Source: a virus. Taken from it: DNA of 39,614 nt. Both the position numbers and the translations under genes were made by a program. The stretch is from IMG/VR virus record IMGVR_UViG_3300000956_000096, positions 1 through 39,614 of that record; one strand, written 5' to 3'. The notes beneath the pieces were generated by a model. The model saw only the letters and a list, made by a program, of their open reading frames with translations. It was not told where the DNA came from and did not search any database. The number at the start of each line of letters is the position of its first letter. Positions within the stretch are counted from its first letter, which is position 1. Shown here piece after piece: positions 10,392-28,039 of this stretch.

Positions 10392-10394
10392 CAG

Positions 10395-10466
10395 TAGGAC
10401 TGGAGGGACTTGAACCCTCAACAAACTGATTAAGAGTCAGCTGCTCTGCCGTTGAGCTACAATCCT
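10395..10466 (-). tRNA. tRNA-Lys (anticodon CUU)
   Basis: The reverse complement folds as a complete cloverleaf. The acceptor is AGGATTG/CAGTCCT with one G-U pair. The D arm is GCTC/GAGC, the anticodon stem GCTGA/TCAGT with loop CTCTTAA (anticodon CTT), and the T arm GAGGG-TTCAAGT-CCCTC. The discriminator is A and no CCA is encoded. It reads AAG codons, which are common in the lysine-rich phage proteins here. It is the only tRNA I found in the window. Confidence 0.95.
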
Positions 10467-18508: not shown

Positions 18509-18819
18509 CGATACACTCAATACACTCAATACACTCAGTAGAGTACATGTGTGAATGTATGTATTATATATATATAAATAATATCTCCCCCCATAAGAAA
18601 GAACTTACAACCATATAAACCTATAACACCACATATATCCATACTCTTTTTTAGTTAGGTACTTACTGGTGTATCCAGTGTATCGGGTGTATCGTGTTTA
18701 TGGTACAGGGACTAAAAATCGACTTTTTTGACCCAAAATAAAAAAGACTATAAATACAGTGCTTTTTATTTTCACTTGTATCCAGTGTATTGAGTGTATC
18801 CAGTGTATTGAGTGTATTA
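18509..18819. repeat. Three clusters of a 9-bp iteron around an AT-rich core
   Basis: Cluster 1, minus orientation: 18509-18544 (CAATACACT units, 3 clear plus 1 diverged). Cluster 2, plus orientation: 18668-18694 (RGTGTATCS, 3 units). Cluster 3, plus: 18775-18819 (5 units, AGTGTATTG/AGTGTATCC). Clusters 2 and 3 are each followed by TGGTACAGG. Between clusters 1 and 2 lies an AT-rich stretch (ATTATATATATATAAATAATAT). This layout resembles an iteron origin or a terminase packaging site. It lies directly before the small terminase gene. Confidence 0.7.
18727..18754 (+). promoter_or_regulatory. Possible rightward promoter
   Basis: TTTGAC at 18727-18732 and TATAAA at 18749-18754 are separated by 16 bases, or TTGACC by 15. 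The spacer is A-rich. It would drive the structural operon from within the iteron region. The host sigma factor preference is unknown, so this is tentative. Confidence 0.35.
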
Positions 18820-18837: not shown

Positions 18838-19656
18838 ATGGGGTGGTGGGGTTATAGACCCAGCCGAGGTAAGATGGACTCTATGTCACCCACAAAACGA
18901 ACTTCCAAACCACATTTCCAAAATCATAATCGTCCACTTACTCTGGATGATAACCCGCTGGGAACAGTCAACAAGCAGACAAGCCAGCCCAAATCAGCCA
19001 AGTCAGAAGAGGGTAATGGTGTTGGCCACAAGTCGGAAGGGTTTTCCAACACTGACAGTGCCACTAGACAGGAAGACACCGGTTCAAATCCTTTATCGGC
19101 CAGCGCCACACAACGGTCAGATAACGGTGTGAAGGATTTCCAAACTCTGGATGATGTCCCAGAGAAGCTGGATAGGTTTGGTCGGCCAATGCCAAAGACA
19201 GAACACCTTGTCCCATATCATTATAAGAAGGGTCAGAGTGGGAACCCATCTGGTCGGCAGAAAGATGTTGTTAGAGCCATTGGCCAACAGATAGCTGCTC
19301 GCAAGATTTCCAAGGCTCTGAAACCCAAAGAGAGGGAGATGGCCGAGCAGATGGGGTTTGACACCAGTGAGATTACACTGCTTGAGAACTTGATGCTGAA
19401 GCTGGCCATGTCAGCGAACCCGATGAAGGTGGCGCTCTTCCTGGAACGCACTTTTGGAAAAGTGCCTAACATCAATATCAATGCTGAAATGGATGCAACA
19501 CTGGTGGCACGTTTCAGACAGAAGTTTACAGATAGTGAACTGCAAGCAATAGCCAATGGGGAAAGCCCAATGGACATACTCTTCGAAAAGTTGCCAGACA
19601 TAGATGAAAGCCCAATGAGTGATGATATGGTTGATGGGTCATTCATCAATGAATAA
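18838..19656 (+). CDS. Putative small terminase subunit, DUF5681-containing
   Basis: The ATG at 18838 has AGGA 6 bases upstream. A second possible start, MDSMSPTKRT at 18874, follows GAGGT more closely. Reading back to a TTG at 18790 would translate iteron sequence and is rejected. The N-terminal 100 residues are polar and low-complexity. The centre has YHYKKGQSGNPSGRQK, the DUF5681 signature, common in proteins encoded just before large terminases. A helical C-terminal part follows (NLMLKLAMSANPMKVALFLE). It overlaps the large terminase gene. It probably recognises phage DNA, possibly the adjacent iterons. Confidence 0.75.
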   Translation: MGWWGYRPSRGKMDSMSPTKRTSKPHFQNHNRPLTLDDNPLGTVNKQTSQPKSAKSEEGNGVGHKSEGFSNTDSATRQEDTGSNPLSASATQRSDNGVKDFQTLDDVPEKLDRFGRPMPKTEHLVPYHYKKGQSGNPSGRQKDVVRAIGQQIAARKISKALKPKEREMAEQMGFDTSEITLLENLMLKLAMSANPMKVALFLERTFGKVPNININAEMDATLVARFRQKFTDSELQAIANGESPMDILFEKLPDIDESPMSDDMVDGSFINE

Positions 19657-21211
19657 CATTTCCAACACTGTCAATGCAGAATTGGAACTACGTCGGCGAA
19701 GAAGGGCTAACAGCCAGCTACTCGCTCCCGATGATTGGTACACATGGACTAGAACCATGTTTCCAAAACATTTCAGGTATGAACCGGCCATCTTCCATCG
19801 GCAGTATTGGGAGTGGATAGAAGGTATACAAGCCGGTGTAAAGCCCAAAGCCTTCATCGGCATCTGGGCACGTGGTGATGCCAAAAGTACCAATGCAGAA
19901 ACCGGTGTCATCCGGCTGGCTTCCAAAGGTGTTAGAAGATATGGTCTGTATGTATCGTCCACGCAGGACAAGGCCGATAAACACGTTCAGACTATTTCCA
20001 ACATGCTTGAGAGTAAACCATATGCGAACTACTATGGGAAGATGAGCCAGCGCGCTGTGAATAAATATGGCTCATCAAAGGGATGGCGACATGACCGTCT
20101 GATAACAGGGACAGGATTTGCCGTTGATGCATTCGGCTTGGATAGCGGCTTGCGTGGAGCGAAGATAGATGACGCTCGTCCAGACTTCATTATCATTGAC
20201 GATGTGGATGAGAAGTTCGACTCACCAGCCACCACAATGAAGAAGATGCAGGTTATAACCGACACAGTGTTACCGAGTGGTTCAGATGATTGCGCCATCT
20301 TATTCGTGCAGAACCTAATTGCTCCCGATAGTATAGCCAGTCGGCTTGCTGATAATAGAGCTGACTTCTTACGCAACAGAATTCTATCTGGTCCATACCC
20401 AGCGGTCTTGAACTTAATATATCAGTTTGACCCTGTGGAGAATAGATATATCGTGACAGGTGGTGAGCCAATGTGGTCGGCTCGGACACTGGCCGATGCA
20501 CAAGCAAAGATTGATGATTGGGGTTTGTCTTCCTTCTTACGGGAGGCACAACATGATGTTGATAAGAATGATGGTCTGTGGTCACACATACATTATCAAC
20601 ACATAAACTATGATGACCTTCCAGCACTTGAAGATGTGGCCGCTTGGATTGACCCAGCCGTAAGCGCCACTGAGCACAGTAACAGTCAGGGTATATCAGT
20701 TGGTGGACGAACAACAGATAAGAAGCTAATTGGATTGAAATGGTGGGAAGGAATAACATCTCCACAGAAGGCCATGGAGATGGCAATTGAATGGGGTTAT
20801 GAATGGAAGGCCACACATGTCGGCGTAGAAACAGACCAAGGAGGTGATACATGGAAGAGTGTTTATGATGAAGCCTGTAAGATAGTGATACAACGGCTGG
20901 CCGATAAATGGTTACTTGAACATGAGGCCGATGAACCCGTTCCAGAATTCAGATTACCTAAGTTCACATCAGACAAGGCCAGTGCGCGGGATGAGAAGAC
21001 AGGGTTGTCTAAAGGTAACAAGATGGAGCGGAACCAGCGTATGCTCACTGACTATGAGAAGGGAAAGGTTATTCATATGGTCGGCACTCATACAGTCATT
21101 GAGAAGGCATTGAATCGTGTTCCTTCTGACCCTTGGGACTTGAGCGATAGTCACTGGTGGTTATGGTACGACCTAATCTATAAAGTGAAAAAGAAAGTGA
21201 GAGCAGTGTGA
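19649..21211 (+). CDS. Terminase large subunit (packaging ATPase/nuclease)
   Basis: About 520 residues, starting MNNISNTVNAELEL; earlier in-frame starts inside the previous gene are possible. Residues ~70-80 hold a Walker A-like GIWARGDAKSTNAE. DFIIIDDVDE is the Walker B with catalytic acid. The C-terminal RNase H-like nuclease has acidic positions in AAWIDPAVSAT, then THVGVETDQGGD, and a late DLSDSHWWLWY. Such ATPase-nuclease fusions translocate DNA into the prohead and cut it. The length is typical. It lies between the DUF5681 protein and the portal, the classic order. Confidence 0.93.
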   Translation: MNNISNTVNAELELRRRRRANSQLLAPDDWYTWTRTMFPKHFRYEPAIFHRQYWEWIEGIQAGVKPKAFIGIWARGDAKSTNAETGVIRLASKGVRRYGLYVSSTQDKADKHVQTISNMLESKPYANYYGKMSQRAVNKYGSSKGWRHDRLITGTGFAVDAFGLDSGLRGAKIDDARPDFIIIDDVDEKFDSPATTMKKMQVITDTVLPSGSDDCAILFVQNLIAPDSIASRLADNRADFLRNRILSGPYPAVLNLIYQFDPVENRYIVTGGEPMWSARTLADAQAKIDDWGLSSFLREAQHDVDKNDGLWSHIHYQHINYDDLPALEDVAAWIDPAVSATEHSNSQGISVGGRTTDKKLIGLKWWEGITSPQKAMEMAIEWGYEWKATHVGVETDQGGDTWKSVYDEACKIVIQRLADKWLLEHEADEPVPEFRLPKFTSDKASARDEKTGLSKGNKMERNQRMLTDYEKGKVIHMVGTHTVIEKALNRVPSDPWDLSDSHWWLWYDLIYKVKKKVRAV

Positions 21212-22698
21212 AAACAACAAACAAGAAAGCGAAAGTGAAACCCGTTCCACGTCGGCGCACTGTAAAACCGACTGATGACACCACGCAGACAATGATAGAC
21301 AACACCACCAGACTCTTGCAGAATAGCGGCCAGTTATCCAGAGCCATGTTAGGTAATCGGCTGGGTCGTTCCTTTGATGGTGACAGAGACTTGTATAAAA
21401 CATTTGGGTATATACGCTCGCCTGTGTATGATGATTACCGCGCGTTCTATGACCGGATGGGGCTGGCTACCCGCATGGTTGAAAAGTTCAGCGATGACAC
21501 GTGGAATAAACCACCAACATTGATTGACGGTGAAGCCCGTTCTGATATGGATGAACAGCAGCTAACACCATTCCTCTCAGACTGGAATGCTTTGGTGAAA
21601 CGGCTGGGTGTATGGCAGATGATGAGACAGGCCGATGTCATGTGTGGGATTGGCCGCTATTCCATTCTATTCCTTGGAACAACCGGCGCATATGATAGTC
21701 CTGCTGGTGGAAGTCGGCAATTGTTTTATCTGGCCGCATACGATGAGAAACAGGCTGAGATACAGAAGCTGGTCACTGACCAGAAGTCAGAAAAGTATGG
21801 GATGCCAGAAGAGTATAGGGTTTCAATGGATGACCCAAAGACCATCGGCTCTGTCATCACAAGGGATGTACACTATTCTCGATGTATACATGTCAGTGAG
21901 AATAGATTGGGTTCCCGTGTATATGGCCGACCACGTTTACAGGAAGTGTTGAACCGGCTCATGGACTTGGAGAAGGTAACTGGTGGTGGTGCTGAGGCCG
22001 CGTGGCTGGCTGTATTCATGGGTTTATTGTTATCATCCAAGGAGGGAATGCAAATGCCAGAACCTGGAACACCAGAGAACACCGCTCTGCATGAAACGAT
22101 GGAAGCCTTTGTTCATCGGATGCAACGTTATGCAGTGATTGAAGGTGTTGACGTAAACAATCTTGGAGTCAGCACAGTTGATATCAGTGGGATATATCAG
22201 ACACTGGCATCTGACCTTACTGGTTCCAAAGGAATTCCACAGCGTATCTTCTTTGGAAGCGAACGTGGTGAACTGGCCAGCTCACAGGATATGCAAGAGT
22301 GGAATGGGTTTATTGGCTCAAGACGCGTGAACTTTGCAGAACCAGAAATACTTGAACCGTTCGTGAACTGGTGTATCCTTCATGGTGTTGTTACACCACC
22401 AGAAAGTACAAAGTTCAAGATAGTATGGCAACCGGTTTACACAATGACACAGATGGAAGAAGCGAATTATGCTTTGGCTTTGGCACAAGGAGCATCGGCT
22501 GTAACTGGTGGCGTTCCAGAACAAGCCATGACAGTGAATGAATTCCGTTCTGTTGTTCACTTTCCAGCGTTTGAAGATATAGAACAATCGGCCATCAAGA
22601 AGGAGGAGAAAGTTGAGAAGGGTTTGATTGATGGCCAGCCGGTCAATGGAAAGGCCAGCGAGAAAGACTTGGAAGAGACTGAGCCAGAGGTTGTATGA
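21208..22698 (+). CDS. Portal protein, DUF1073-type
   Basis: A 496-residue protein starting at GTG 21208, overlapping the terminase stop as GTGA. It contains RSFDGDRDLYKTFGYIR, ATRMVEKFSDDTWNKPPTLI and IHVSENRLGSRVYGRPRLQE, the layout of DUF1073-family phage portals, with NGFIGSRRVNFAEPEILEPF late. The C-terminus is charged. Portals form the dodecameric channel at the head vertex. Both ends overlap neighbours by a few bases, supporting tight translational coupling. Confidence 0.85.
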   Translation: MKTTNKKAKVKPVPRRRTVKPTDDTTQTMIDNTTRLLQNSGQLSRAMLGNRLGRSFDGDRDLYKTFGYIRSPVYDDYRAFYDRMGLATRMVEKFSDDTWNKPPTLIDGEARSDMDEQQLTPFLSDWNALVKRLGVWQMMRQADVMCGIGRYSILFLGTTGAYDSPAGGSRQLFYLAAYDEKQAEIQKLVTDQKSEKYGMPEEYRVSMDDPKTIGSVITRDVHYSRCIHVSENRLGSRVYGRPRLQEVLNRLMDLEKVTGGGAEAAWLAVFMGLLLSSKEGMQMPEPGTPENTALHETMEAFVHRMQRYAVIEGVDVNNLGVSTVDISGIYQTLASDLTGSKGIPQRIFFGSERGELASSQDMQEWNGFIGSRRVNFAEPEILEPFVNWCILHGVVTPPESTKFKIVWQPVYTMTQMEEANYALALAQGASAVTGGVPEQAMTVNEFRSVVHFPAFEDIEQSAIKKEEKVEKGLIDGQPVNGKASEKDLEETEPEVV

Positions 22699-23504
22699 TA
22701 TACGCAAACGCTGGCACAGTGGTAAGACCGAAAACATTTTATGATGGCGCTCCCATCAATGTTATGGATGCCGGCCAGTTGACCAGCTATCTATCATCAT
22801 TCAACACAGAGGAAGAACGGGCAATGCAGAACCTTTGGCAAACCTATGCGGCGAGGAAGGAACTGGCTGGTGGTGGTGGCCGTATAAGATACAGGATGGG
22901 CGCTGACATGCAATACTACCGGACGATTGGGAGCAAAGAAACAGTAGTCCCATATAATTCAATCAAGACGGATATGATACGTTTCGCCAAAGGTGTTCAA
23001 GTAGAACAGCGGTCTATCAGTTCAAACCTTATAAGAGGGAATATAAGTGGCCAACAGTGGTACGACGAAACAGTGAGAACAGCTAAACTTTCTTATGGAG
23101 CCGCGTTCCAAACAACAAGGTTGAACAACAGTGAACCCATGGATGATGATGAGCGGAGGCGCTGGCTTGAAACCATTATCATCATACTCCTCCTCCTGAA
23201 TAACACCGCTGAAATGATATCCCAGAAACAAAGGCCATTGGATGGAACGTTCCTGTTGAATGCAGATGGCCTGTCAAACAGTCTTATCGGCTCTCCTGAA
23301 AACTGGCGAACACAGGTGGCGCTCAGACAAGGGTTTACACAGGGAAGAAGGCGATTGGGCTTTGCAGAACACTGTCATACAGAAGGAGACAGAACCGGAT
23401 GTGTTGAACTGGCCGATAGAGGATGGGTTCCTTTGTACACCGTTGTTCGTATCGGCATGGCCAGTTGTTATTGGAACTGTAAATGTATCATCCAATACAG
23501 ATAG
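22695..23504 (+). CDS. Minor head/head-morphogenesis protein
   Basis: A 269-residue protein, ATGA-coupled to the portal. The N-terminus is beta/alpha with AGQLTSYLSSFNTEEER. A long middle follows (GGGGRIRYRMGADMQYYR). The C-terminal end carries HCHTEGDRTGCVELADRGW, then PLYTVVRIGMASCYWNCKC. The pattern C..C..ELAxxGW...G...C..NCxC matches the C-terminal signature of many phage minor head proteins (SPP1 gp7-like). It probably joins portal to capsid. Confidence 0.8.
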   Translation: MIYANAGTVVRPKTFYDGAPINVMDAGQLTSYLSSFNTEEERAMQNLWQTYAARKELAGGGGRIRYRMGADMQYYRTIGSKETVVPYNSIKTDMIRFAKGVQVEQRSISSNLIRGNISGQQWYDETVRTAKLSYGAAFQTTRLNNSEPMDDDERRRWLETIIIILLLLNNTAEMISQKQRPLDGTFLLNADGLSNSLIGSPENWRTQVALRQGFTQGRRRLGFAEHCHTEGDRTGCVELADRGWVPLYTVVRIGMASCYWNCKCIIQYR

Positions 23505-23820: not shown

Positions 23821-26499
23821 ATGTTTACCAGAAACACAAGCTTACAAATTAATGCGGCCAGACAAGTCAACCATGATGGAGTTGATTATCTTGTCGTAGC
23901 TGGTGTTCCTATCCGTGAACAAGTGTTGAACGATTACTTTGTTTCGGCTGAAGAGATAAACCGGTTTATCGGCGCATGGAATGGCATTCCTGTTACTATC
24001 AATCATCCAGTGGCTAACAATGGCTCAGCCAATGTACCCAGTCCTGACGTAGCCATCATAGGAAGATTTTACAACGCTACATGGGACAGCGACCAGAATA
24101 GATTGACCGGTGAATACTGGATAAACTTGAATGAGGCCATGAAGTACCAACAGGGTAGGGACATAGTTCAACAGATACAGGCCAACACCATTCTTGAAAC
24201 AAGTACGGGCTATTGGGCTGATGAAGAAAGAAGAGAAGGGGAATTTAATAACAGGCCATACAAGACAATACACCACCACTTACGTCCAGACCATATTGCA
24301 ATCTTTCCTGATGGTACATTGGGTGCTTGCTCGAATGAAGATGGCTGTGGTGTCAATCTGAACAGCCAGAAGGTAAAGGTATTCAGAGTGATTGTTAGTG
24401 GCGGCAGGGGAAGCGGCCATCGTGGGCACCGAGGCCGAATAGGCGAACAAGGTGGCAGCGAGAAAGGTATTAGCGCCACACATATCACCGCCGAAAGTTA
24501 CAAGGATGCAAAGGGTAACACCATTTACCGCATTCCGGCTGGGACTGAACTAACCAGTACTAATTTCCTTGATGACTTGGAAAGGAATGATAAGACTGGA
24601 GATGGGTTGGTTCGTTTCATCTACAACAAAGAGTCGAAGATGTGGCATATCTCAACCCATGGAGCAGATGAAAGTGACCATGGAGATTTTATTACCAGTG
24701 CTCTGGATGGTCATAACCCAGCTTATACAGAAGAAATACAAGTTCGTGGAATGTATGATTTTGTCAATAACGAATTGGCTTTCTATGATTTTTATGGGAT
24801 TAGCGATAGCATAGCTGAAGAGAACGACCTCCCTGTAAAACGTGTGCAGAAAGACATTGAGAAAGCTAACAAGAGTGCAGAAAGACATCTATTTTATTAT
24901 ATAAGAACAAAGCCAATCTTCACTTACATGGATATGTCTGAAGTAGTTGGTAACGCTTCAGTCACATTCAATAATCAGACGTACAGCTTTGTTATTGTAA
25001 GTGGTGGCCTCGGCTCCGGACACAAGGGACACAAGGGTCGTCTCGGTGAACAAGGTGGTTCAGAGCCATCGCTGTACCATGGAACTTCTGTTGAGGTGGC
25101 CAAGAACATAAGAAAGAACGGGCTGGATATAAAACATTCTGGCGACCGCACTGGTTCATGGGTACAAACCATATGGACGACAAGTAATAAAGAAGCGGCT
25201 GCTTCCTTTGGAATGGATGAAAAGCAGAAAGGCCATTATGCCATCATTACTTTGAAACCCAGCGTACACAAACTGCTGAATGAAAATTATAAAAGCATGA
25301 TGGGAGTTTATACATTTGACCAAAGCATTCCACCAGAATATATTGATAAGGTGGAAGTATTTTCATTCAAGTCTCTCGATGAAAGGCCAAACAAACACAA
25401 GAAGGTAAAACAGTTTGCCGCACAGTTATACGTTCCAGTAGTTATTGATGACACCACTGGTGATTACAGGTTTCCAGTACCACCAACAGGAGAAGGTGAA
25501 ACGATGAAGAATAAAGTTCAAACTAATTGTGGATGTGATGATAAGGAGAAGGATATGAAACCAGTTCTGTTGAATGATGTCAGCTTAGACCGGCGCTCCG
25601 AAACAATCCGGCGCTCATTCTATTCATGGGTGAGCAAGATGAACAGTACAAGCGAAACCTATTATCCCTCCATCAGTATCTATTCCCCTGATGGCATTTT
25701 TGAAACATATATTATTGCAGAACAGGCTGGGAGATTATATAAAGTTGATTATACGCTAGAGGGTTCGGACGGTGTGGTGTTCAAGCCGAAAGAAGAATGG
25801 GAGGAAGTGGAAGTTGATTTCGTGGTTCCGGAAACACCAGTTCCACCGGTTGTTTCTTTACCTGTTTCACCTGCAACCAATAAGATGAAAATAAAACAAG
25901 GAGGTAGCCTATCGTTACGTAATGCAGTGAGTAAGTTGAGAAAGAATAAACAAACCCCAAAGGAGAAAAGTATGAACAAGAAAATGAAGTTGGAAGAGTT
26001 CTTCACATGGCTCAAAGGTAATAAGGGTATCAGTGTTGTCGCCAATGAAAACGACAGCGATGAACCTGAGTTTGAGGTCACTGAAGAAACACAAGAGCCA
26101 GTCAAACTGGAAGTGGCCACACAACCTGCTCCCGCTGGTGTTGGCCTTTCACCGGCTGAACTTGAGTCGTTGAAGAAACTGGCCGCTGTAGACTTCAGCG
26201 CGTTACTGAGCCTTCCTGCACAGGTTGAGCCGGTGTTGCAGTTTGCACAAAACCAGAAGAAGGAACAGGAAGTTCGTCGGAACGGTCTCATCGCAAGAGT
26301 GAAGGCCAATTCCAGCAACGTGTTCAACGATGAAGAGTTGAATGCGCTGCCCGACTCCGTCCTCCAGAAGCTGGTCAGTCATGATGACGTTGATTACAGT
26401 GGAATGAGTGGAGCCACCTTTGTAAACTCTTCAGATGATAGCGAAGGGTTCCTCGGCCTCCCCAAAATTTCATTCGGTACAGATAGCGAGGTAAAGTAA
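23821..26499 (+). CDS. Prohead protease/scaffold polyprotein with two inserted domains
   Basis: 892 residues. Residues 1-180 match DUF2213-type phage proteases (LVVAGVPIREQVLNDYFVS; WNGIPVTINHP with His62; ILETSTGYW with Ser128; RPDHIAIFPDG). Residues 193-213 and 394-414 are near-identical linkers of the form SGGxGSGHxGHxGRxGEQGG. After the first comes an unrecognised domain (about 215-385). After the second comes an ADP-ribosyltransferase-like domain (about 417-515: LYHGTSVEVAKNIRKNGL, then WTTSNKEAAASFG, YAIITL and IPPEYIDKVEVF). Residues 575-670 and 700-892 match the usual rest of such proteins, with a helical scaffold-like tail. It probably cleaves itself and scaffold. The inserts may be internal cargo (inference). 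Confidence 0.85.
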   Translation: MFTRNTSLQINAARQVNHDGVDYLVVAGVPIREQVLNDYFVSAEEINRFIGAWNGIPVTINHPVANNGSANVPSPDVAIIGRFYNATWDSDQNRLTGEYWINLNEAMKYQQGRDIVQQIQANTILETSTGYWADEERREGEFNNRPYKTIHHHLRPDHIAIFPDGTLGACSNEDGCGVNLNSQKVKVFRVIVSGGRGSGHRGHRGRIGEQGGSEKGISATHITAESYKDAKGNTIYRIPAGTELTSTNFLDDLERNDKTGDGLVRFIYNKESKMWHISTHGADESDHGDFITSALDGHNPAYTEEIQVRGMYDFVNNELAFYDFYGISDSIAEENDLPVKRVQKDIEKANKSAERHLFYYIRTKPIFTYMDMSEVVGNASVTFNNQTYSFVIVSGGLGSGHKGHKGRLGEQGGSEPSLYHGTSVEVAKNIRKNGLDIKHSGDRTGSWVQTIWTTSNKEAAASFGMDEKQKGHYAIITLKPSVHKLLNENYKSMMGVYTFDQSIPPEYIDKVEVFSFKSLDERPNKHKKVKQFAAQLYVPVVIDDTTGDYRFPVPPTGEGETMKNKVQTNCGCDDKEKDMKPVLLNDVSLDRRSETIRRSFYSWVSKMNSTSETYYPSISIYSPDGIFETYIIAEQAGRLYKVDYTLEGSDGVVFKPKEEWEEVEVDFVVPETPVPPVVSLPVSPATNKMKIKQGGSLSLRNAVSKLRKNKQTPKEKSMNKKMKLEEFFTWLKGNKGISVVANENDSDEPEFEVTEETQEPVKLEVATQPAPAGVGLSPAELESLKKLAAVDFSALLSLPAQVEPVLQFAQNQKKEQEVRRNGLIARVKANSSNVFNDEELNALPDSVLQKLVSHDDVDYSGMSGATFVNSSDDSEGFLGLPKISFGTDSEVK

Positions 26500-26948
26500 T
26501 GAGCGCTCCGCACACTATTCTTTTGCTGACACGTTCTTATCTGGAACGTGAAGGTAAGCTGAACGATGACACCAAACCCATCACTCCAGGAATGTTATTG
26601 ACTGCGATTGCTGGTGGCGATAAACCCACTCTTGAACCCGGACCAGCGGCTACGGTCGCTCCTCCTGTCATGATGGTGGCCACTGAGTTACCGCAAAGGT
26701 TTGGTCAGGACATTGATACTCCGTATACCGTTGAAGGTGAAGTAGTGGAGTACTATATCCCGATTACTGGTGAGCACCTTTATATGTTTCTTGAACCGGC
26801 TGGTAATGTGGCCGCTGGTGCTATTCTCGAGAGTGGTGGACTCGGTTATCTGCAAGCTGGAACTACCAGTCCGCTATGCCGCGCGCTGGAAGCAGTTGAT
26901 AATTCTGCTGGCGGAACCGCTGTTCGTATTCGTGTGGAGGTGCTGTAA
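26499..26948 (+). CDS. Putative capsid decoration protein
   Basis: A 149-residue protein whose ATG shares a base with the previous stop (TAATG). The N-terminal 60 residues are polar/Pro-rich (LEPGPAATVAPP). The C-terminal part is beta-rich with a repeated G pattern (AGNVAAGAILESGGLGYLQ; RALEAVDNSAGG). This is typical of head-decoration proteins placed just before the major capsid gene. The family is assigned from position and pattern, not a unique motif. Confidence 0.72.
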   Translation: MSAPHTILLLTRSYLEREGKLNDDTKPITPGMLLTAIAGGDKPTLEPGPAATVAPPVMMVATELPQRFGQDIDTPYTVEGEVVEYYIPITGEHLYMFLEPAGNVAAGAILESGGLGYLQAGTTSPLCRALEAVDNSAGGTAVRIRVEVL

Positions 26949-28039
26949 TGGATACCAATGATGTAATCTTTCAACAGGGTTACGTTACCGACCGTCAGCT
27001 GCTTGACCCGTTCAACTTACGTCCTTGGTTGAACAAAGCTGGCGAGACAATGATTACCTATGTGGCCGGACATCAGACTGTGAAGAATGAAAATACTGGT
27101 CGCATGGAACGCAAGCCGGTGTTCCGGAATAAGCGCGTTATCAAGAATGCGCTTCTCCGTCAGCGCGACTGGGAACAGATTGACAACGCTGTCGTTGATG
27201 TTATGCGACAGCCTCTTGTTGGTCTCAATGATTTGGAAGCGGCTGGCCTGACCACTCAGTTGGACGGACTTGGTGTTTCCCTTTCCACGTATGACCAGAT
27301 TAGCGACATGTCCCCTGCAAGTGTAAACATGTCAATCACGCCACACAAAGCGGAGAAGGACCGACCGGTGTTCAGTCCGGTAAGTGTTCCCATCCCTGTT
27401 ATCACCAAACCCTTCACGCTTGATATCCGTACACTGGATGCGAGTCGCCGCAATGGTCATGAAGGTTTGGATGTGACAGGTATTCGTGTGGCCACAATTA
27501 AAGTTCGAGAAGCTGTTGAGGAGATAATCTTCAACGGTTCGGACGTTCAGATAGGGGAATATAAAATCTATGGTTACACCAATCACCCGAACCGGCTGGC
27601 TGATACCGCTGGTAACTTTGGTGGTGGCGATTGGGGAACAGATGGTAACGCCCATAAGACTATCAGCGGTATGATAGCTTCTCTGATTGCATTGGGCTTC
27701 AATGGACCGTTCGGTTTGTATGTGGCTTCAACACAATATGCACAGAGCCTGAACCTGACCGGTGCAAACCTCAGCGATACCCAGCTCTCTGTCATTCAGC
27801 GAACCATTCCTGACCTGAAGTTTGTGCGCCGCGCGCCAAAGCTGGCCGCAGGAACGGCTGTTCTTGTTCAGATGACCAAGGAAACAGTTGATATCGCCAT
27901 TGGTCAGAATGTGGTTCCCATCAGTTGGCAGGATTATGGTGGACTCATGAATGAGTTCATGGTTCTGGCTGCGATGGCTCCTCGGTTCCGTTACGATGTG
28001 GATGGCACACTTGGTGTCGCTCACGTAACTGGAATTTAG
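26948..28039 (+). CDS. Major capsid protein (HK97-fold/encapsulin-like)
   Basis: A 363-residue protein starting MDTNDVIFQQGYVTDRQLL. Features include VKVREAVEEIIFNGS, then YKIYGYTNHPNR, and a late GQNVVPISWQDYGGLMNEF. This arrangement (E-loop region, helix plus FNG, and GY/GL-TNHP) occurs in encapsulin-like HK97-fold phage capsids. The absence of a long leader fits a separate scaffold (the protease gene). The gene overlaps the decoration gene by one base. Confidence 0.85.
   Translation: MDTNDVIFQQGYVTDRQLLDPFNLRPWLNKAGETMITYVAGHQTVKNENTGRMERKPVFRNKRVIKNALLRQRDWEQIDNAVVDVMRQPLVGLNDLEAAGLTTQLDGLGVSLSTYDQISDMSPASVNMSITPHKAEKDRPVFSPVSVPIPVITKPFTLDIRTLDASRRNGHEGLDVTGIRVATIKVREAVEEIIFNGSDVQIGEYKIYGYTNHPNRLADTAGNFGGGDWGTDGNAHKTISGMIASLIALGFNGPFGLYVASTQYAQSLNLTGANLSDTQLSVIQRTIPDLKFVRRAPKLAAGTAVLVQMTKETVDIAIGQNVVPISWQDYGGLMNEFMVLAAMAPRFRYDVDGTLGVAHVTGI

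Follow-up and report, generated by a model that had tools for sequence, protein, structure and literature searches.

The gene at 23821..26499 (+) of the window, by which we mean the whole stretch of 39,614 nucleotides of viral DNA analysed here, encodes an 892-residue head maturation protease/scaffold polyprotein of the DUF2213 (PHROG 760) type. It carries two very similar Gly/His-rich linkers, each followed by an additional segment. Why does a capsid protease contain such segments, and what are the linkers for? From sequence comparison we infer, with a probability of roughly 0.7, that each linker is a cleavage site of the prohead protease through which cargo would be freed inside the head; packaging, ejection and enzymatic activity of the cargo are presumed along with the cutting.

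The window protein and its slot

The linkers occupy residues 193-213 (SGGRGSGHRGHRGRIGEQGGS, starting at nt 24397) and 394-414 (SGGLGSGHKGHKGRLGEQGGS, starting at nt 25000), exactly where the original prediction had placed them, and no further full copy is found on either strand of the window. When SGGRGSGHRGHRGRIGEQGGSE and SGGLGSGHKGHKGRLGEQGGSE from linkers 1 and 2 are compared, 18 of 22 residues are identical, while DNA identity is only 62%. The same codon is used at only 7 of the 18 shared residues, and two shared serines belong to different codon blocks (AGC vs TCC, AGC vs TCA). Each linker can be divided into a serine, the putative P1 residue in VIVS|GG, and a block of 20 residues. These are Ser193 (24397..24399, +) with joint block 1, GGRGSGHRGHRGRIGEQGGS (aa 194-213; 24400..24459, +), and Ser394 (25000..25002, +) with joint block 2, GGLGSGHKGHKGRLGEQGGS (aa 395-414; 25003..25062, +).

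The N-terminal domain (aa 10-184; 23848..24372, +) matches both Pfam PF09979 (23.6 bits, cut-off 22) and PHROG 760 (E 2e-15), and H62-P63, S128 and D157-H158 are invariant columns in the window protease and its homologues. By profile match and by the conserved His-Pro, Ser and Asp-His, the domain is assigned to the DUF2213 family. As a whole, the 892-residue protein has no close homologue in viral contigs. Both linkers break the junction between protease and scaffold. In contig L016 and others, a subdomain ending in ...LYxxxYxxxxGxVxxxPxEV comes shortly after the protease end (GACSxxxGCG), and the scaffold follows. The counterpart of this subdomain in the window was placed by eye at aa ~591-667 (25591..25821, +), since MAFFT did not place it; with this assignment, a domain border has received an insertion of about 400 residues. 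The C-terminal scaffold-like region (aa ~668-892; 25822..26496, +) is weakly similar to the C-terminus of L016 (E 8e-5), the insert-free homologue that served as comparison for this part.

The same border is found both with and without the block. The protease domain (aa about 1-187) is found in four isolates, namely Brevundimonas phage StAshley, Halorubrum phage Hardycor1, Streptomyces phage SF3 and Pseudomonas phage DDSR119, and no block occurs in the head regions of their records, which were the parts checked. The protease border is also block-free in contigs L016, L208, L161, L160, L134, L035, L049, L136, L219 and L228. On the other hand, a block directly follows the same GACSxxxGxG protease end in L187/L196, L194, L145, L054/L059/L045 and L013. 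The expectation that DUF2213 proteases normally lack such inserts thus agrees with the isolate homologues and with several IMG/VR contigs, and the two inserts are not constant parts of the protease.

Insert 1 (aa 214-393; 24460..24999, +) is an orphan module of about 180 residues with no relative detectable by profile or homologue searches in viral contigs and isolate phages, and its AF2 model, built from a single sequence, is not usable (pLDDT 32). Insert 2 (aa 415-517; 25063..25371, +) has its HGT motif at aa 420-422, and the strand with this motif, some 6 residues after the block, is where the module starts. Its AF2 model from 15 sequences reached a pLDDT of 80.7 and resembles the ADP-ribosyltransferase (ART) lobe of the RNA 2'-phosphotransferase Tpt1/KptA, with a Foldseek E of 8e-6, a VIA Z of 10.9 and a VIA rmsd of 2.2-2.4 over 89-90 residues; only Tpt1 residues 89-182 are aligned. 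The YHGT..I..GL motif is shared with KptA/Tpt1 as well, but the N-terminal RNA-binding lobe of these enzymes is absent from insert 2. According to the model, insert 2 is an ADP-ribosyltransferase-fold domain, and we only presume that it is enzymatically active. Alone, it has no close homologue in isolate phages; relatives stand directly behind blocks in eight other loci, at a distance of 5-18 aa. A separate domain behind each linker, as predicted, is therefore seen as a folded ART-like domain in one case and a distinct stretch in the other.

The gene order of the window is terminase, portal, minor head, protease, small protein and major capsid protein, and a comparable head gene order exists in Hardycor1, DDSR119 and StAshley. 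The terminase large subunit (19619..21211, +; PHROG 38, E 3e-41) is followed by the portal protein (21208..22698, +; Phage_portal_3, E 1e-26, and PHROG 146, E 4e-59), which contains no joint in this phage. The major capsid protein (26948..28039, +) has the DUF6260/Linocin_M18 fold and belongs to PHROG 771. Between portal and protease, the gene at 22695-23504 has a minor head/MuF-type ending (AEHC...CxxNCKC) and no good match to any family. Just upstream of the late gene block, 18511-18818 contains short 9-bp tandem repeats (ATACACTCA, AGTGTATTG and similar ones), and a tRNA-Lys (CTT) gene lies at 10394-10466 (-).

A block shared by head proteins of many virus contigs

In a scan of IMG/VR, 70 stretches with the GSGH form and at least 120 with the GSGN form were found, and those listed contain 329 block copies over 251 non-redundant virus ORFs. 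The 20-residue pattern is GGPGSG[NH]xGHxGRPGxxGGS, with a near-universal looser form that includes the window, GGxGSG[HN]xGHxGRxGxxGGS; the consensus of the 329 copies is GGPGSG[NH][FHW]GH[AEK]GRPG[EK][VR]GGSxP. As a control, the reversed pattern gave zero matches in the 50 other block-carrying virus contigs, so the block occurs above chance. In 50 contigs, all block copies are on one strand. About 85,000 prokaryote genomes yielded 60 pattern matches, all of them chance-like; the complete block was absent from these genomes, and L099 was the sole match fitting a loose version. The complete block is frequent in virus contigs and was not found in these prokaryote genomes, as if its phages seldom become prophages in sequenced hosts. 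A tblastn search with the bare linker returned no match, probably because low-complexity filtering masks the query.

Upstream of the block we found portal, MuF/head morphogenesis and head maturation protease families, or else a short leader. The carriers, namely portal, MuF and maturation protease, are head proteins located within or on the prohead. A short leader is, for example, MTITLLVRVK| in L205 and L215, and in L014 and L028 a leader of about 20 residues is common to several genes with different modules. As a side observation, L205, L215, L014, L028, L018 and L193 have small genes in which a shared leader of 10-25 residues precedes the block and the modules differ. Downstream of the block, ADP-ribosyltransferases are the commonest modules, besides DRAT, Zeta toxin, GNAT, RelA/SpoT, 2H phosphoesterase, PBECR2, topoisomerase IB and many modules of no known family. 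In the largest chain, a 2650-aa ORF at L031:3262-11211 (-), ten joints delimit about ten modules. The first stretch of this ORF resembles 2'-5' RNA ligase/2H. The common slot, the head-protein carriers and the effector-like modules together support the proposed modular cargo slot. A link of the block to DUF2213 in particular was rejected, with DUF2213 present in only 20 of the 50 block contigs.

The residue before the block and the protease family

The residue before GG differs between phages and is almost fixed within each of them. It matches in 89% of pairs within a locus vs 17% of pairs between loci. All copies of a locus agree in this residue in 56 of 66 loci, where copy number reaches eleven and the codons are mixed. 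Over the six residues that precede GG, the difference between within-locus and between-locus agreement was reached in 0 of 2000 permutations. Position -2 is nearly free (18% within vs 9% between loci) and position -3 is partly fixed (34% vs 10%). A fixed residue before GG combined with a partly fixed -3 is what a protease site would show at P1 (and P3), as judged from sequence.

We then compare this residue with the prohead protease of each phage. T4 gp21 cleaves after L/I-X-E (PMC9026906), and from the likeness to gp21 a pairing of S77 proteases with E|GG was predicted before the S77 search was run. An S77 (gp21-type) protease was detected in 4 of 50 contigs, and all four have E|GG (hypergeometric 2e-5, contigs treated as independent). 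Leu or Ile is at P3 in 13 of 15 sites of the set-1 S77 contigs, compared with a background of 13% (p 2e-10). The new contigs picked by E|GG included a fifth S77 phage, 94 kb long, whose four E sites are mostly [LI]xE; none of the new E|GG contigs contained DUF2213, and no S77 was found in the remaining ones, mostly short fragments. Overall, S77 was detected in 5 of 12 E contigs, and most of the misses are fragments of 5-25 kb. One E|GG contig without detected S77 is 74.5 kb long, and its sites, RKYRE and ESMTE, are not [LI]xE.

The canonical DUF2213 contigs have P1 = D in 10 out of 10 cases (p 1e-9, again with contigs taken as independent) and in 5 out of 5 of a second set. When 24 new contigs were picked by D|GG, canonical DUF2213 was present in 20 and S77 in 0. 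PHROG-760-type DUF2213 contigs have L, A, S, H or N at P1. Within this type, [RK]x[LA] predominates in one supported clade (97/94), a group that accepts L and A and, rarely, M or G. The window protease groups with those of L035 and L049 in a clade supported at 100/100 and is 46% identical to that of L049, and all three have S|GG joints, L049 having one H as well; this S|GG clade has only these three members. In S78/XkdF contigs, P1 is K, K, K and R, and HK97 cleavage is reported at K103/S104 (PMC10275583). For R, K and N phages, the protease-family searches of block contigs mostly brought up no protease.

The p-values for P1 and protease family treat contigs as independent, which they are not, since phages that have the same protease family are relatives. 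Part of the P1 uniformity is accounted for by common descent of the joints within a lineage. The motif of the phage's own prohead protease appears before the cargo, as [LI]xE|GG with S77 and D|GG with canonical DUF2213, a correspondence at the level of motif only. The prediction that the domains may be freed by cleavage at the linkers thus gains strong comparative support from the match of P1 residue to protease family, and the cleavage would follow from this match.

Proposed cleavage, rival readings and known systems

On the cleavage reading, the two inserts of the window would be cargo modules spliced in where the DUF2213 prohead protease joins its scaffold. A joint would consist of a P1 residue set by the phage's own prohead protease (in the window, Ser in VIVS), followed by the near-universal block. 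Carrier head proteins, or short leaders, would bring effector cargo into the prohead during assembly, and the active protease would cut between P1 and GG, in the window after Ser193 and Ser394. The predicted fragments are about 21.7, 22.6 and 55.2 kDa; the second would start with a Gly/His/Arg tail and the third would comprise the ART-fold domain together with the scaffold. The freed cargo would be enclosed together with the DNA and would reach the host in the way that Alt and the internal proteins of T4 do. Two further points stand against cleavage. As the window lacks a third joint, the ART module would remain on the scaffold unless another site is cut. Also, a protease site alone needs no strictly conserved downstream block, and cleavage alone does not explain why the block is constant.

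The linker could instead be an uncleaved, flexible Gly-rich tether that hangs effector domains from head proteins, the whole fusion staying in the virion. Its Gly/Ser-rich composition, its position at domain borders and the modules that have no second joint on their C-terminal side would all suit a tether. However, nothing in a spacer calls for invariant His, Arg and Pro or for a fixed residue in front, and the residue before GG is phage-specific and follows the protease family. We therefore consider a tether unlikely.

Alternatively, the block may be a targeting or ejection tag read by a common factor such as DNA, the portal channel, a metal ion or a host factor, with the P1 uniformity as a lineage mark only. 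The constancy of the block across phages with unrelated proteases speaks for this, and the short genes of leader plus block look like T4 capsid-targeting leaders. But a tag of this kind leaves unexplained [LI]xE in S77 contigs, D in canonical DUF2213 contigs and the recovery of DUF2213 from contigs picked by D, and as a replacement for cleavage we find it quite improbable. It may well hold in addition to cleavage.

At the DNA level, block copies within a locus have 89% amino acid identity, and the codon identity for shared residues is 39% compared with 35% expected from codon usage. Variable block positions agree in 66% within a locus vs 41% between loci (0 of 2000 permutations), and this excess persists in pairs with codon agreement of at most 40%. 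With near-random codons and fixed residues, DNA identity is not what is kept. A recombination seam for swapping modules, with no role in the protein, would fit the same block before unrelated modules in unrelated carriers and up to ten copies in one ORF, but it was rejected on the codon data as very improbable, since codon choice is almost random among the copies within a genome, with serines switching between AGY and TCN, and near-identical DNA copies are clear in one contig only (G002).

Coming back to cleavage at the joints, parts of the scheme are already known, namely effectors fused to head proteins (polyvalent, MuF) and prohead-processed internal proteins (T4, SPN3US). In T4, internal head proteins and Alt, an ADP-ribosyltransferase, have a capsid-targeting leader that gp21 removes at its motif (PMC9026906). 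Joint phages are similar in having head-borne effectors behind a putative prohead-protease site, including ART cargo, and those of the S77 type use [LI]xE. Unlike in T4, the cargo is inserted in or fused to the portal, MuF or the protease itself, often with several modules per protein, and phages whose proteases are unrelated share a 20-residue block behind the site. Polyvalent proteins and MuF-effector fusions (PMC5512222, PMC9503650, PMC5576092) likewise have effector domains (ART, 2H, PBECR, GNAT, RelA) fused to head proteins, and Nudix-protease fusions were noted (PMC9503650). The polyvalent-protein paper differs in ascribing processing mainly to zincin metallopeptidases or C-terminal assemblin-like peptidases; compared with polyvalent proteins, the window has one ART-fold domain and one orphan module on a head protease. 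The word 'linker' is absent from the polyvalent, NAD and MuF papers (PMC5512222, PMC9503650, PMC5576092), and five joint sequences gave no match in the main text of 5.39 million open-access papers. In SPN3US/phiKZ, many head and ejection proteins are matured at one short protease-specific motif; these are propeptides of giant phages, and the part of the source available notes no shared block after the cut (PMC10052503).

If the cleavage reading is true, one short sequence would mark virion-delivered effectors in hundreds of uncultured phages, and their cargo could be catalogued from sequence alone. The residue before the block would also read out the cleavage specificity of the head protease, a property otherwise established in very few phages. 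This raises the puzzle of what reads a block that is nearly invariant behind the cut across unrelated proteases. A tentative answer, possible though not one we would count on, is that GGPGSG[NH]xGHxGRPGxxGGS is a phage-wide, protease-independent cargo tag that would be read for retention and ejection by some common factor, be it packaged DNA, the portal/tail channel or a component of the host. It would then form a plug-in effector format that moves between phages by a change of P1 only, and every released effector would have the same N-terminal tail, whichever prohead protease cuts.

Two further DUF2213 proteins vary the arrangement. The one at L013:5979-8897 has one joint and module before the protease and another behind it. 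In the one at L172:4594-6345, a shortened joint, GGPGSGPQxGG(G), occurs three times, always preceded by Ala, which suggests that the joint family is wider than the one counted here.
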